A program made the translations under genes and the position numbers. A stretch of 64,000 nt of DNA, taken from the NCBI RefSeq assembly GCF_037076455.1, contig NZ_AP028679.1:4169501-4233500 (forward strand), read 5' to 3'. The notes below the pieces were generated by a model that ran no database searches, was not told where the DNA came from, and worked only from the letters and a program-made list of their open reading frames with translations. Shown here one piece after another: positions 11,818 through 44,983 of the stretch; positions within the stretch are counted from its first letter, which is position 1, and every line of letters starts with the position of its first letter. Source of the stretch: Desulfoferula mesophila (GTDB lineage Bacteria > Desulfobacterota > Desulfarculia > Desulfarculales > Desulfarculaceae).

Positions 11818-12444
11818 TCAGAGCAAGTGGCCGCCCCCGCGGGCGGCGTCCACCAGTTTTTTAAGCTGGGCATAGGGCTGGGCCCCCACCACCAGCCGGC
11901 CCCCGGCCAGGAAGCTGGGCACCGCGCTGATGCCCACCTGGCGGCTGTAGGCCCAATCCTTATCCACCGCCGGGGCGTAGCGGCCCGACTCCACCGCCTC
12001 CAGGGCCTCATCCGGCTCCAGGCCCACCTTGGCGGCCTCTTGGGACAACACCGCAAGATCGTAGATATTCTTGCCCTCGGCAAAATAGGCGCGGAACATG
12101 GCGTCGTGGAAGGCCTCGCCCTTGCCCTGCTCCTCGGCCCACTTGCCCAGCTCCTGGGCCCGGCGGCTGTTGAAGGTCATGGTGCGCATGCCCCAGGGCA
12201 GACCCTCTTGGGCCGCCGCGGCCTTCAGGCGCTCCAGCATGGCCGGGATGTCCATGCCCCGGCCCGCGAAGAGCTGCTCCAGGGTGCTGCCCTGGGGCGG
12301 GGTCTCCGGGTGCAGGGGAAAGGCGATCCACTTGAGGGTCAGGTTTTCCTCGGCCGCCAGCTTTTCTATACGCACGGTACAGAAATAGCACCAGGGTCAG
12401 ATGTAGTCGCTGAAGACCTCGAGGGTCAGGGGGGCGTCGGACAT
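11818..12444 (-). CDS. Selenocysteine-containing DsbA/FrnE-like oxidoreductase (in-frame TGA)
   Basis: A 208-residue DSBA-like thioredoxin-fold protein of the FrnE branch, readable only if the TGA at 12397-12399 is decoded. Starting at the ATG 12442-12444 the frame reads MSDAPLTLEVFSDYI-TGA-PWCYFC, then continues VRIEKLAAEE and on to VGISAVPSFLAGGRLVVGAQP. In Cys homologues the active site is typically CPWC, so TGA replaces the first, nucleophilic Cys and gives Sec16-Pro-Trp-Cys19. A hairpin follows at SECIS distance. The cis-proline motif AVPSF is intact and no other stop interrupts the frame. A GTG at 12373-12375 would give only a truncated protein lacking the active site, so I reject it. 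Expected role: cytosolic thiol-disulfide or dithiol-dependent detoxification. Automated annotation would probably truncate it. Confidence 0.85.
12363..12385 (-). promoter_or_regulatory. Candidate bacterial SECIS element
   Basis: Eleven bases after the in-frame TGA the coding strand folds into a nine-pair stem, TTTCTGTAC with GTATAGAAA (one G-U pair), around the five-base loop CGTGC, which carries G-U in the apical loop. Spacing and shape match the upper stem-loop recognised by SelB in bacterial selenoprotein messages such as fdhF. It lies inside the coding region, as bacterial SECIS elements do. Confidence 0.7.
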
Positions 12445-12512
12445 GGCTGCTCCCTATGGATAGAGTGGTTCTCTATAGGTTAGCGCAACAAGCAGACTTG
12501 GGCAAAAGGGGG

Positions 12513-14807: not shown

Positions 14808-15137
14808 TCAGCAGCCGCAGCTACTGCAACTGCCGCAACTACTGCTTTCGGGCTGGGGCAAGGGCTTGGAGCTGGAAAGCATGAAGCCCTGCTGCTCGGC
14901 GTCGGTGAGATAGTCCAGTTTCATGTCGCCCACTACCTCGGCCAACTTGGCCTCGATCACATAGCTGATGCCGTCCACGTCGTAGGTGTCATCGCCGTCG
15001 CGGGCCTGATCCACGCCCATGGCCAACTGAGAGCCGCTGCATCCCGATTGCAGGAAGATGCGGATGGGGGGTTCGAGGTTTTTTTCCGCCATTACCGCTT
15101 TGAGGGCCTCGCTGGCCGCGGGGGTAACTTCCATCAT
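14808..15137 (-). CDS. IscA/HesB-like iron-sulfur protein with Cys-rich tail
   Basis: A 109-residue A-type-like protein. FLQSGCSGSQLAMGVD (C33) is the family signature and VDGISYVIEAKLAEVV follows. Instead of the usual single C-terminal CGC it ends in SCGSCSSCGC, with C101, C104, C107 and C109. Such proteins in sulfate reducers are annotated IscA-like or HesB-like and may hold iron or an Fe-S cluster. Start: ATG at 15135-15137 (a second ATG follows directly). It lies 76 bases downstream of the HdrD gene on the same strand, so it may serve that Fe-S protein. Confidence 0.85.
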   Translation of the reverse strand: MMEVTPAASEALKAVMAEKNLEPPIRIFLQSGCSGSQLAMGVDQARDGDDTYDVDGISYVIEAKLAEVVGDMKLDYLTDAEQQGFMLSSSKPLPQPESSSCGSCSSCGC

Positions 15138-15213: not shown

Positions 15214-16542
15214 CTAGAATTCCATATCCAGGTCCACGCCCAGGCGCTCCCACTGGGCCGCCGCCTCGGCCTCGCCCTTGGCGACCTCTTCCTCGCTCCA
15301 GGGTTCGATGACCAGGCAATCGGCCACCAGCTCCCAGATATATTTCACCTCATATTTGTAGTCGTCGTAGTACTTGGGCAGGCGCTTCATGATCTGGTCG
15401 TGACAGTTGGAGCAGGCCACCACCACCACGTCGGCGCCGGATTCCTTGATGGACTCGTACTTCTTGCGCCCGTGCCAGGCCGCGTCGTCTTCCCAGGGCA
15501 GGGGCCAGTTGCCGCCGCCCGCGCCGCAGCAGTTGCCGTTCATGCGGTTGGGCTCCACCTCCACGAAGTTGTCCGCGCACTGACTGATGATCCAGCGGGG
15601 CTCGTCGAAGTAGCCGTGGCCGAAGTGGCTCTCTAGCTCCCGGCCGTGCTTACAGCTGTCGTGCCAGGTGAAGGTCTTGCCCGCGTACACGCTCTTGTCC
15701 AGCTTGATGCGCCCCGCTTTGATGATCTCCACCAAATAGTCGTAGAGATAGATGAAGTTGGTGGTGTTGTCCGGATCGTCGAACTCGCACATCTTCATGC
15801 CGTTGCGGCAGCCGTAGGAGCCGCCGCCGCAGTCGGGCATGATCATCCGGCCGATGTTGAACTCTTTCATCATGTCGATCTTGCGCTGGGCCAAGATGCG
15901 GGTGGCCTCGTAGTTGCCGGTGAACAGGCCCCAATCCACCGCCTCCCAGTTTTTGCTGGGGATGGTCCAGTTTTCCTTGGCCGCGTAAAAGATCTTCCAC
16001 CACCAGTACATGTCCTCGAAGTCGCCGAAGACCTCCTTGGAGTTGGGGAAGAACAGGATGTCCGCGTCCTGTTTGTCCACCGGCACGTAGAAGCCGGGGC
16101 AACAGTCCTCGGCCATTTCCACGCCCATGTCGGCCATGGTGAACAGATAGTCCTCGCGGGGGATGGCCATGTTGTTGCCGGTGTTGAGCACGTTTTCCAC
16201 GCCCTTGTGCAGGATGCCCGGCACCTTGTCGCGGGGACGCAGGCTTTTCATGTAGCCAAAGATGGCCGGCATGTCCAGGCCCATGGGGCAGGCGGCGGCG
16301 CAGCGGCCGCAGCCGGTGCACAGCCAGGGGAAGCGGCTGTTGACCACCTCGTCCAACATGCCCAGGGCCAGCATGCGGATAACCTTGCGGGTGTCCCAGC
16401 CCTGCATGTCCTCGGCGGGGTTGCCGGTGATGGGGCAGCCCCCGGAGCAGGTGCCGCAGGTCAGGCAGAGGTTGAGGTTGGCCCCTTCCAGTTTTTCCAG
16501 GACATCCTCGGGCAGCTTTTGGGGTCGAATGAGTTCAGACAC
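15214..16542 (-). CDS. HdrD-like heterodisulfide reductase subunit (Fe-S plus CCG domains)
   Basis: A 442-residue protein. The N-terminal ferredoxin domain has two [4Fe-4S] motifs: C26-x2-C-x2-C-x3-CP and C75-x2-C-x2-C-x3-CP. Two CCG-type domains follow: PDCGGGSYGCRNG, where the first is degenerate, and GNCCGAGGG ... CSNCHDQ, where the second is intact. HdrD-family proteins reduce disulfides or serve as electron hubs in anaerobes (family knowledge). GTG start at 16540-16542 with AGGTGAC upstream. It follows the MvhD gene by about 98 bases. The pairing suggests that MvhD feeds electrons into this subunit; HdrA is absent locally. Confidence 0.9.
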   Translation of the reverse strand: MSELIRPQKLPEDVLEKLEGANLNLCLTCGTCSGGCPITGNPAEDMQGWDTRKVIRMLALGMLDEVVNSRFPWLCTGCGRCAAACPMGLDMPAIFGYMKSLRPRDKVPGILHKGVENVLNTGNNMAIPREDYLFTMADMGVEMAEDCCPGFYVPVDKQDADILFFPNSKEVFGDFEDMYWWWKIFYAAKENWTIPSKNWEAVDWGLFTGNYEATRILAQRKIDMMKEFNIGRMIMPDCGGGSYGCRNGMKMCEFDDPDNTTNFIYLYDYLVEIIKAGRIKLDKSVYAGKTFTWHDSCKHGRELESHFGHGYFDEPRWIISQCADNFVEVEPNRMNGNCCGAGGGNWPLPWEDDAAWHGRKKYESIKESGADVVVVACSNCHDQIMKRLPKYYDDYKYEVKYIWELVADCLVIEPWSEEEVAKGEAEAAAQWERLGVDLDMEF

Positions 16543-16640: not shown

Positions 16641-17075
16641 CTAGGCTCCCGCGGCGGCTTGTCGGGGCTGGGGGTACAGCGGCCCCAGCTGGCGTATTCT
16701 CTCGGTAAAATCGTTGCAGGTCTGGGCGAACTGGGGGCCCATGGCCGAGGAATTGAAGAACATCTCCACCCGCTCGGGCTCGATGCCCAGGGCCTCGAGC
16801 ATCTCCTTGGCCTTTTCCACCCGTTTGAGCGCCTTGTAATTGCCGTTGACGTAATGGCAATCGTCCAGCAGGCAGCCCGACAGAAACACCCCGTCCGCTC
16901 CGTCTTCCAGGGCGCGCAGCAAATACAGCAGATCCACCCGCCCGGTACAGGGAACCTGGATGATGCGCACGTTGGGCGGGTATTGCAGGCGCATGCTGCC
17001 AGCCAAGTCGGCGGCGGCATAGGAGCACCACTGGCAGCAATAGGCCAGTATCCTGGGCTCGAATTCCTCGGACAT
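16641..17075 (-). CDS. MvhD-like hydrogenase iron-sulfur subunit
   Basis: A 144-residue [2Fe-2S] protein of the methyl-viologen-reducing hydrogenase delta-subunit family. The motifs ILAYCCQWCSYAAADLAG (C13, C14, C17), VPCTGRVD (C43) and GCLLDDCHY (C68, C73) are all present with Cys, none replaced by Sec. In known complexes MvhD passes electrons from a hydrogenase or dehydrogenase to Hdr. ATG at 17073-17075 with GGAAAGAGG upstream. It is the first gene of the MvhD-HdrD unit. No hydrogenase is nearby, so the donor is unknown. Confidence 0.9.
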   Translation of the reverse strand: MSEEFEPRILAYCCQWCSYAAADLAGSMRLQYPPNVRIIQVPCTGRVDLLYLLRALEDGADGVFLSGCLLDDCHYVNGNYKALKRVEKAKEMLEALGIEPERVEMFFNSSAMGPQFAQTCNDFTERIRQLGPLYPQPRQAAAGA

Positions 17076-17390
17076 AAACGACCTCTTTCCGCGCCCGCTC
17101 CGGCGGGGGCTCCCGGCCAAATCACGGCCAGAATGGATCCCGCGCAGGACCGCCGGCCCGGCAACCTGTCTGGTTCAGCGATTAATTGGAAACTAGCCGG
17201 AGGGGGAACCGGAGTCAAATAGGTAATAACTATTAGGCGTTTACCTTGGCCTGGGTTTAGTCGATAGAAGAAGGGGGCCGAGCCGCGGCGAATTGCCGTC
17301 AAAACGTCAAGTTGATCCCGGCCGAGTCGGCGTAGTCTGGGAGGGCAGGGTTTTGCCCCAAGGCCAGGTCCACTAGCTGGAGGACAAGAG
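17076..17390. other. Divergent intergenic region
   Basis: About 315 bases between the minus-strand MvhD gene and the plus-strand phosphatase gene. It must contain both promoters, but I see no clear sigma-70 or sigma-54 hexamers, no RNA gene and no strong hairpin. Confidence 0.5.
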
Positions 17391-41340: not shown

Positions 41341-41582
41341 TATGCCCCAAACTCCCCCCTGTCCTTGCCCGCACGGCGGATTTACCCTTCGGCCTGCGCT
41401 CAAACCATAAAACCATCCGAATTTCACAAATTTCTTAGGGAATGTAAATGGCGGTCCAAAAGCGAGACGATTTTAGTGGCGGTTGAAAACCGTGACACAC
41501 CGATTCAGTTTTCTTCAGGTGTTTTGGTGCGATGGAGGCCATGGTGGCTTCCAGGCCAGGACTCTCTGGAGGAGCGGAAGGG

Positions 41583-43094
41583 GTGTACACGGACATGGAT
41601 CAATGGGCCCGGATCAGACTTGAGTTGCGCGATGGCCAGGCGAGCAAGCGCGAGTTAATGCGTAGAGAGGGCATCCATTGGGATACCCTGCAAAAGATTC
41701 AGAATTTTCCCGAGCCTCCCGGATACCGGCTCAGCACCCCCCGAGCCAAGCCCAAGCTTGGCCCCTACCTTGAGTTGATCGCCCGGATCATAAAAGAGGA
41801 CAAAAAGGTTCCCAAGAAGCAAAGGCACACGGCCACGCGCATATATCACCGCATCAAGGAGGCGGGTTATCAGGGCAAGTACACCCAGGTAAAGGAGGCG
41901 GTGCGCGCAATCAAGCGCGTGAGCCAGGAGGTGTACATGCCCCTGGTCCATCGTCCCGGCGAGGCGCAGGTGGACTTTGGCTATGCCCTGGCCAAGGTTT
42001 CCGGGGAGCTTCGCAAGATAGCGCTTTTTATCATGGCCTTGCCGTACTCCGATGCCTTTTTCGTGGCGGCCTTCGACAAGGAGTGCAGCGAGAGCTACTG
42101 GGAAGGGCATGCCAGGGCGTTCGAGTTTTTCGGTGGGGTGCCCCACCGGATCAGTTACGACAATAGCAAGGTCCTGGTTTCCAAGATCATAGGGCCTCAT
42201 GAGCGCAAGCTGACCGATGGTTTTCTCAAGCTGCAGAGCCATTACCTTTTTCGGGAGCATTTTTGTCGGGTGCGGCGTCCAAACGAGAAGGGCGTGGTGG
42301 AAGGGGTGGTCAAGTACGCCCGGCAGAATTTTTTGGTGCCAGTGCCCCAGGTGAAGGACCTGGCCGAGCTCAATGCCATGCTTTTAAGGCAGTGCCGCGA
42401 CGACATGAAGCGCCGTTTGCGTGGCAAGGGCGGTAGCAAGGCCGAGGTTTTGCAGGAAGACCAGACAGCCTTTGTCCCCCTGCCTCCCTCCCGCTTCGAT
42501 GCCTGCCGCAAACAGCCTACCCGGGCCAATTCATTGTCCCTGGTCCGCTTCGACGACAATGACTACTCGGTGCCGGTGGCTTGTGCCCACCATGAAATTG
42601 TGGCCAAGGGCTATGTGGATCGGGTGGTGCTCTGCCACCATGACGTGGTGGTGGCCCGCCACTCCCGATCCTGGGGCAAGGAAGGGGTGTTTTTCGACTA
42701 CCGGCATTATCTGCCCTTGCTGGAGCGCAAGCCTGGCTCCCTGGACCACGCCCGCCCCCTGGCTGACCTAGATCTGTCTGAGTGCTTTGAGGTCTTGAGG
42801 CGGCGGCTGGTGGCCGGGGAAGACATGCCTGGCCAGGGCACCCGTAAATACATAAAGGTCCTACGTTTGCTGGAGGACCACTCCATGGCCAGACTGAAGC
42901 GGGCGGTGGAGCAGGCATTGTACGCGGGAGCCTATGCCCCGGAGGCCATTGTCCACCTGCTGGAGCCGCCATCATCAGGGCCCGCGGCCACCTTCCTGCT
43001 GGACGGTCGTGAGCACCTGGGCCGAGTGAGCGTGGCCGGGCCCGATATCACAGTCTATGACTCCCTCCTCGCGCAGGGAGGGGCGCTGTCATGA
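41583..43094 (+). CDS. istA: IS21 family transposase IstA
   Basis: A ~503-residue DDE transposase. An N-terminal helix-turn-helix (ASKRELMRREGIHWDTLQKI) is followed by the retroviral-integrase-type core with the first Asp in QVDFGYAL, the second in SYDNSKV and the Glu in GVVEGVVKYAR, then a C-terminal beta domain. The start is uncertain: GTG at 41583 with GGAGGAGCGG upstream is favoured over the ATG at 41532. It overlaps istB by four bases. Confidence 0.92.
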   Translation: MYTDMDQWARIRLELRDGQASKRELMRREGIHWDTLQKIQNFPEPPGYRLSTPRAKPKLGPYLELIARIIKEDKKVPKKQRHTATRIYHRIKEAGYQGKYTQVKEAVRAIKRVSQEVYMPLVHRPGEAQVDFGYALAKVSGELRKIALFIMALPYSDAFFVAAFDKECSESYWEGHARAFEFFGGVPHRISYDNSKVLVSKIIGPHERKLTDGFLKLQSHYLFREHFCRVRRPNEKGVVEGVVKYARQNFLVPVPQVKDLAELNAMLLRQCRDDMKRRLRGKGGSKAEVLQEDQTAFVPLPPSRFDACRKQPTRANSLSLVRFDDNDYSVPVACAHHEIVAKGYVDRVVLCHHDVVVARHSRSWGKEGVFFDYRHYLPLLERKPGSLDHARPLADLDLSECFEVLRRRLVAGEDMPGQGTRKYIKVLRLLEDHSMARLKRAVEQALYAGAYAPEAIVHLLEPPSSGPAATFLLDGREHLGRVSVAGPDITVYDSLLAQGGALS

Positions 43095-43867
43095 AGGACC
43101 AGGACAAACCCACCGTGCTCTTGGAGTACCACCTCAAAAAGCTGAAGCTGCCCACCATTCTCCGGGAATACGCGGCCATGGCCAAGGTCTGCAGCCAAGA
43201 CCGCTCCGATTACATGACCTACCTGCTGCGCCTGACCGAGCGGGAGCTTCTGGACCGCGAGAAGCGGGCAGCCGAAAGGCGCATCAAGCAAGCCGCCTTT
43301 CCGGTGATCAAGACCATGGACACCTTTGATTTCAAGGCACAGCCCTCCATCAATCAGCAGCTGGTCAGGGAGCTGATGAGGGGCGAGTACATCGCCAAAA
43401 AGGAAAACGTGCTCCTGATCGGAAACTCCGGCACCGGCAAGACCCACCTGGCCAGCGCCATGGCCTTTGCGGCCTGCGCCCAGGGAAGCAAGGTGAAATT
43501 CTACAGCGCCACCGCCCTGGTCACAGAGCTCATGGAATGCCGCGAGGAAAGACGTCTGCAACGCCTGCAGAAACAGCTCCAGCGCCTACACCTGCTGGTC
43601 ATCGATGAACTGGGCTATGTGCCCTTCTCCAAGATAGGCGCTCAAATGCTATTCGAGGTGGTGGGTAGGGCATATGAACAACAAAGCCTCATGATCACCA
43701 CCAATCTCCCTTTCCAGCAATGGACGGAGGTCTTCGGCTCCGAAAGACTCACCGGTGCACTGCTGGACAGACTGACCCATAGGTGCCACATCATCGAGGC
43801 CAATGGAGAAAGCTACCGGCTCCGCCAAGCCAAAAGACGATCCCAGGCAAAGCCCAAAACCAACTAA
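43091..43867 (+). CDS. istB: IS21 family helper ATPase IstB
   Basis: A 258-residue AAA+ ATPase related to DnaC. Walker A is GNSGTGKTHLA, Walker B LLVIDELGYVP, and the arginine region ERLTGALLDRLTHRC. It assembles on DNA and regulates IstA transposition. Full length; the start overlaps the istA stop (ATGA). Confidence 0.95.
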   Translation: MKDQDKPTVLLEYHLKKLKLPTILREYAAMAKVCSQDRSDYMTYLLRLTERELLDREKRAAERRIKQAAFPVIKTMDTFDFKAQPSINQQLVRELMRGEYIAKKENVLLIGNSGTGKTHLASAMAFAACAQGSKVKFYSATALVTELMECREERRLQRLQKQLQRLHLLVIDELGYVPFSKIGAQMLFEVVGRAYEQQSLMITTNLPFQQWTEVFGSERLTGALLDRLTHRCHIIEANGESYRLRQAKRRSQAKPKTN

Positions 43868-43964: not shown

Positions 43965-44546
43965 TCACAGCTGTTCCTGGGCAATCCGGACAACGTGGAA
44001 GAGATAGCCAAGCTAACCATCCAGATGATTGGGGAACGCGGGCGAGAGAGACCCAAGGGCATCTTGGCCATAAGGGCTCGGCTACAGAAGGTCTCCAACC
44101 AAAAGGCCAACCTGATCGCCAACCTCAAGGACGCGCCAGAGCTGGGCAGGATCCTAAAAGACGAGCTCGTGGCACTGGACATTGAGGAGAGGCGCTTGCA
44201 GGAGACCTTGGAGGTGGCGGAATCAAGCCAGCATCAGGGCGAGGCTACCGACTTGGCCAGCCGGGTGCGCCAGGCTTGCGAGGAAATCTTGGCCGTGTGG
44301 GAGAGGGCTCCGGTCAAGAAGAAGAACCAGCTACTGAAGGCCCTGGTTCACCGGGCTGAGGTGGACGCCGAGAGCAAGGAAGTCACCTATTACCTGGCCA
44401 TCCCCCTGAACTTACTGACCGGACCAGAAAACACCCACCCCGGGGGTGGATCCAGAGGTGGGTGCACGCAGGTCGTGGCGGAAGTGCATGGGAATCGAAC
44501 CCACCTACCGCCTTACTCAGACGGTACACCGGATTTGAAGTTCTAA
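43965..44546 (+). pseudogene. C-terminal remnant of a large serine recombinase
   Basis: Directly right of the IS21 end an open frame reads FLGNPDNVEEIAKL and continues through a long charged coiled coil (IRARLQKVSNQKANLI, EERRLQETLEVAE) to a NQLLKALVHRAEVD segment, the C-terminal coiled-coil region of Pin-related large serine recombinases. The catalytic N-terminal domain and zinc ribbon are absent, replaced by the IS21 element. The last ~23 codons overlap the selC 3' fragment on the opposite strand (HGNRTHLPPYSDGTPDLKF), so the gene's 3' end is its attachment site. A GTG at 43995 is a possible but probably non-functional start. Confidence 0.75.
44476..44541 (-). tRNA. selC: 3' fragment of tRNA-Sec (selC), attachment-site scar
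   Basis: Read on the minus strand the bases run from the anticodon loop CTTCAAA (anticodon TCA), through TCCGG (3' side of the anticodon stem), a long variable arm with TACCG and CGGTA pairing, the T arm GTGGG-TTCGATT-CCCAT and the eight-base acceptor strand GCACTTCC to GCCA. This is the layout of bacterial tRNA-Sec, whose 3' end is also CTTCCGCCA in E. coli. Upstream of the anticodon loop the sequence no longer pairs, so the 5' half is missing. It is a recombination product, not a working tRNA. Confidence 0.85.
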
Positions 44547-44983
44547 CGTAAGGATCATAATATCAATAAGTTAAGCTGGTTGGGGTTGCAGGAGAATGCA
44601 AATTCATGCACCCTGTGCCCCCAATCCGCACCCTATGCGCACCCAACCACATCCTACCCCTGTTACATTTATTGGAGAGAAGTCAAAAACAAAGTCTGAC
44701 TCAAAAAATGATGCCCCAGGTGCCAGCGCAACCAACTGGCGCTTTCTTGGAATCGACGCCCGCCCTGCCGCCTCCTGAAAGAATGGGGTGTCAGCCACCA
44801 ACCAATCGTTCAGGGAGGGATACTCACTGAAATCGGTGCCGTGTTTTTTTGACAAAATAGATGAAGCGGCTGAGATTGGTCTGTGCCACGCGCTGAGCGG
44901 ACGGCTCCCACGGTTTTTCAGCCATTCTCTCTCTCAATGGCAAAGGCATGGATAATAAACCCTGACCCGGCTTCCGGCCTGCC
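44547..44983. other. A/T-richer gap beyond the selC scar
   Basis: About 435 bases. Near 44600-44660 there are several CACCC/CCAACC-type short repeats, and GCCAG/CTGGC pair near 44723-44741. An 83-codon minus-strand frame (44604-44855) has no ribosome site or recognisable family. I see no supported gene. Composition changes here from the GC-rich left part. Confidence 0.45.

Follow-up and report, generated by a model that had tools for sequence, protein, structure and literature searches.

The gene and its reading frame

The window, i.e. the whole stretch of 64,000 nucleotides analysed here, carries on its minus strand at 11818..12444 a gene that, when an in-frame TGA is translated as U, yields a FrnE-type DsbA-like protein of 208 residues with a UPWC active site. 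The assignment draws on this translation, the PF01323 domain and the match to FrnE described below. The gene starts with an ATG at 12444, preceded on the same strand by the Shine-Dalgarno-like AGGGAG (12450..12455), and both the ATG and the 15 codons between it and the TGA are conserved within the genus. The TGA is codon 16 (12399-12397) and is followed by 192 sense codons and a TGA stop codon ending at 11818, which agrees to the base with the frame proposed in an earlier note on this DNA. The standard ORF list contains only a GTG-started form of 185 amino acids (11818-12375) that is devoid of the active site, as the note had also anticipated.

The in-frame UGA (12397..12399, minus strand) is very probably read as Sec16, the predicted nucleophile of UPWC, at a site occupied only by TGA or Cys codons in the homologues. 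The predicted resolving Cys19 (12388..12390, minus strand) and Pro176 (11917..11919, minus strand), which belongs to a VP motif facing the active site of the thioredoxin fold, are invariant in our alignment, as are Pro17, Trp18 and residue 16 itself, the last being either Sec or Cys. From what is known of the family, we take Pro176 to be in the cis state. No paralogue of the gene is found in the same genome at E ≤ 0.001. A GC3-pattern search of the window, which short or low-contrast cases would escape, gives no convincing further TGA-containing gene. The window also encodes HesB/IscA-like (14808-15137), HdrD-like CCG-domain (15214-16542) and MvhD/FlpD-like (16641-17120) proteins, which belong or are related to families with known Sec forms; their frames are open and free of internal TGA.

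Protein family and predicted fold

Pfam assigns the protein to PF01323 (DSBA; 3.6e-35), and a phmmer search against solved structures returns D. radiodurans FrnE as the nearest (5cnw, 1.4e-28). The AlphaFold model, built with a 43-row alignment, has a pLDDT of 95.3 and a pTM of 0.91. FrnE ranks at the top in both Foldseek and VIA-align, with a TM of 0.90 to 5cp1, and the predicted model fits FrnE 5coh with a Z of 27.8 and an rmsd of 1.8 A over 203 residues at 32% identity. S. coelicolor SCO1869 comes next, with HCCA isomerases and kappa GSTs behind. The FrnE-like DsbA assignment made in the note is therefore borne out by the sequence matches as well as by the predicted fold.

Inspection by eye of the N-terminus, MSDAPLTLEVF, reveals no apparent signal peptide. 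Having a FrnE-type DsbA fold, a site of the CPWC/CPFC type and a predicted cytoplasmic location, the protein belongs to the FrnE subfamily (cd03024), and the combination of a PF01323 domain with UxxC also places it in DsbA-like selenoprotein form 1. The C-terminal CX4C, which occurs in many but not all FrnE proteins and has been proposed to regenerate the active site (PMC8945050), is absent from all 74 Sec sequences, including that of the window; it is an accessory motif that membership of the subfamily does not require. An additional Cys22 (UPWCYFC) is present in 7 of the 74, namely the window's protein and its relatives in the genus. No NCBIfam model matches the window's Sec form over the cut-off.

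Conservation of the TGA codon

Homologues were collected by scanning genome contigs together with 395 genomes of the phylum, with identities of roughly 28-87%. The active-site codon was read at 109 distinct homologous sites: 74 carry TGA, the remaining 35 a Cys codon (TGC/TGT), and none any other codon. The TGA forms comprise 58 UPWC and 16 UPFC/UPYC sequences, spread over about 49 genera in the phylum sample and extending to MAGs labelled Rokuibacteriota and Gammaproteobacteria; the marine gammaproteobacterial UPWC loci (L033, L035, L036 and L038) fall in the same tree. The in-frame UGA is thus aligned with the redox Cys of homologues, and the protein sequence is conserved on either side of it. 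Because the TGA recurs in 74 distinct homologues, it is not a sequencing error, a concern that the note itself had raised.

In the maximum-likelihood tree, the most parsimonious history involves 12 Sec/Cys changes, 8 of them forced by well-supported branches, implying that the residue has switched repeatedly, a pattern expected for a redox selenoprotein. One Cys form (L139) is nested in a Sec clade, and its genome has no selA or selB over the cut-off. Although selA is present in 62 of the 63 TGA genomes tested, its baseline in the phylum sample is already 107/118 (91%), so that co-occurrence is a weak test and was dropped as proof of Sec use. The exception (genome G198, locus L116) combines a TGA form and an intact SECIS-like hairpin with neither selA nor selB over the cut-off; it is a draft assembly of about 240 contigs, and mis-binning or missing contigs are likely. 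Separately, one Cys form (L032:684-1289) has an extra in-frame stop about 50 codons past the active site, where its near relative L031 is open. The stop may be a sequencing error of this low-coverage MAG, and the sequence was left out of the alignment because of the internal stop.

A SECIS hairpin downstream of the TGA

A bSECIS hairpin with a 9-bp stem lies at 12363..12385 (minus strand), directly 3' of the UGA. Its sequence, UUUCUGUAC-CGUGC-GUAUAGAAA, allows nine pairs around a small apical loop of five bases with G at the second position; it begins 11 bases after the TGA, and the loop is 20 bases downstream of the TGA. Folded alone, it has an energy of -7.2 kcal/mol and a z of -4.8, whereas the wider 52-nt stretch gives a z of only -1.1. 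Since the latter value is uninformative, we relied instead on conservation relative to synonymous recodings, using 200 sets drawn with each gene's own codon usage and scored in a fixed nine-pair register.

All nine pairs form in this register in 0.8% of the recodings of the window's gene. The TGA homologues average 7.39 of 9 pairs against a null mean of 5.23 (highest null mean 5.49), whereas the Cys homologues average 4.91 against 4.70 in the same register. The hairpin therefore tracks the TGA rather than the protein sequence. Covariation is also apparent in the stem: one pair is A-U in 38 sequences, G-C in 10 and U-A in 6, and another is U-A in 47 and C-G in 10. Position 2 of the loop is G in 57 of 58 UPWC sequences. 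The nine-pair stem, five-base loop and eleven-base spacing described in the note are all present, and the hairpin keeps its register in the TGA homologues only.

Selenocysteine machinery of the genome

The genome is a single contig of 4,479,191 bases and 98.7% complete. It contains an intact selC (71.8 bits), which ARAGORN calls as tRNA-Sec with anticodon tca, together with selA (612 bits), selB (393 bits) and selD (377 bits), the last having one in-frame TGA of its own. All four of selA, selB, selC and selD are hence found in the genome, which removes the other doubt raised in the note, namely that they might be absent.

Main and alternative readings

The main claim of the note, a UPWC-type DsbA/FrnE selenoprotein, is supported by the conservation of the TGA, the hairpin, the complete set of sel genes and the FrnE fold. 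Judging from sequence and the structural model, we consider it very probable that the gene encodes a cytoplasmic FrnE-type thiol-disulfide oxidoreductase of the DsbA family with Sec16 of UPWC as the active-site nucleophile. The 185-residue GTG ORF would be compatible with a TGA that acts as a true stop, in a pseudogene, through a sequencing error or upstream of a gene that lacks the active site. However, the occurrence of TGA across so many genera of the phylum and beyond, the conservation of protein sequence on both sides, and of the ATG and the upstream 15 codons within the genus, and a conserved SECIS into which the GTG itself falls make such a stop highly improbable. That relatives have Cys at the aligned residue might suggest that the TGA is decoded as Cys or Trp, by way of an altered genetic code or a tRNA-Cys(UCA), but the Sec machinery is complete, the hairpin accompanies only TGA forms, and TGA also serves as a normal stop, for example at the end of the Sec gene itself; we give this decoding hardly any credence either. 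With HCCA isomerase and kappa GST the protein shares the fold superfamily (Z of 21.1 for 3fz5 and about 20 for kappa GST), which might suggest a glutathione-dependent isomerase or transferase of that type with a catalytic Sec. FrnE is nevertheless clearly closer, and the dithiol-type U/CxxC motif is invariant, so that a glutathione-dependent enzyme seems very unlikely.

The gene neighbourhood bears on a different proposal, that the protein is an enzyme which uses Sec to handle persulfides and is dedicated to the cluster around it. DsrE, LUD, ArsR and DsrE2 genes flank it in the window, and five relatives (L140, L024, L025, L141 and L142) have the same order up to the ends of their contigs. However, these neighbours are absent around the Sec gene in L143, of the same genus, and in all loci sampled outside the genus, and no neighbour family recurs across genera in the sampled loci. 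Synteny being only genus-level, the neighbourhood was rejected as a functional clue. Since it is not conserved outside the genus, a dedicated persulfide role is not indicated; only some species of the genus retain the context on which the note had based this suggestion, and we regard the role as unlikely. A narrower form, in which the Sec-FrnE of this genus has been recruited to a sulfur-transfer unit (ArsR-regulated DsrE2, DsrE, LUD and HdrD/MvhD-like) and Cys22 beside UPWC confers persulfide or selenosulfide chemistry unlike that of ordinary FrnE, is a speculation that we hold to be quite unlikely.

Proposed function

The selenoprotein is most likely a thiol-disulfide reductase of the cytoplasm in which Sec16 is the nucleophile and Cys19 the resolving thiol. 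During translation, SelB with Sec-tRNA(Sec) would bind the hairpin just past the UGA, and Sec would be inserted in place of termination. Following the thioredoxin-fold mechanism, the Sec16 selenolate would attack disulfides or other oxidised sulfur, whether in client proteins or in small molecules; Cys19 would then resolve the mixed selenosulfide. Since the protein has no C-terminal CX4C, it is presumably recycled by another cytoplasmic thiol or reductase. FrnE is itself a disulfide reductase of the cytoplasm, and its close fit to the window's protein, together with the fact that no signal peptide is apparent, points to reduction or isomerisation in that compartment rather than to oxidation in the periplasm. 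Substrate, redox partner and catalytic direction are points that we can only infer.

Relation to known selenoproteins

A 2005 report on the Sargasso Sea described DsbA-like selenoproteins with UxxC and placed them in COG2761 (PMC1088965). They were counted in complete genomes in 2006, including Desulfovibrio desulfuricans (PMC1794560), counted again in the GOS data as "DsbA 1" (PMC2398784), and tabulated in a 2026 review as "DsbA-like protein form 1" with PF01323 and UxxC (PMC13188914). The window's gene is a further case of this kind and, the kind having been known since 2005, a well-supported but ordinary addition. It shares with form 1, whose published representatives include NIP15863.1, the PF01323 domain, UxxC with an N-terminal Sec, a downstream bSECIS with an apical-loop G and widespread Cys homologues, and differs in nothing essential, the comparison being one of domain, motif and published description. 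"Hidden", as the note called the selenoprotein, is consequently a fair label for the gene, although the family had been described before. In the selenoprotein literature that we found, neither the Desulfarculaceae lineage nor the motif string UPWC is named, and it contains no biochemical results for a FrnE selenoprotein.

In the green algae of the Mamiellophyceae, Sec is inserted into FrnE by way of a 3'-UTR element. These known Sec-containing FrnE proteins (PMC6627142) resemble the window's protein in having Sec but are eukaryotic, a likeness drawn from their published description. D. radiodurans FrnE (DR_0659; PDB 5cnw, 5coh, 5xwh) has the same fold, a CPWC-type site and the same predicted cytoplasmic location, whereas the window's protein has Sec for the first Cys and no CX4C. 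FrnE of D. maricopensis and the founding FrnE of S. roseofulvus are likewise devoid of CX4C (PMC8945050).

A standard gene caller would begin at the internal GTG and lose the active site, so that a selenoprotein of this type is easily missed. As no NCBIfam model scores this Sec form over the cut-off, truncated entries for genes of this kind may be common in databases. A sound model could be built on the 74 Sec and 35 Cys sites and their SECIS, which would also serve for studying how Sec and Cys replace each other among FrnE proteins.

The selC repeat in the window

A tRNA-Sec match of 26 bits, below the gathering score, lies at 44480-44564. It reflects a 67-bp exact direct repeat (44475-44541): the intact selC (C1:4346878-4346971) lies 132,898 bp farther on in the chromosome, and the repeated part is its 3' half. 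The "selC scar" that the note took as support for a Sec-using lineage is therefore real, and an intact selC does exist, but a duplicated half-selC beside a mobile element is in itself no evidence of Sec use and has no bearing on the Sec gene. The mobile element is an IS21-type istA/istB pair (41532-43867) adjoining the repeat. After it, at the repeat, is an ORF fragment (43995-44546) for which Pfam gives no useful match and which by eye resembles the C-terminal part of a recombinase. The repeat is probably the second attachment site of an island of about 133 kb inserted in selC.
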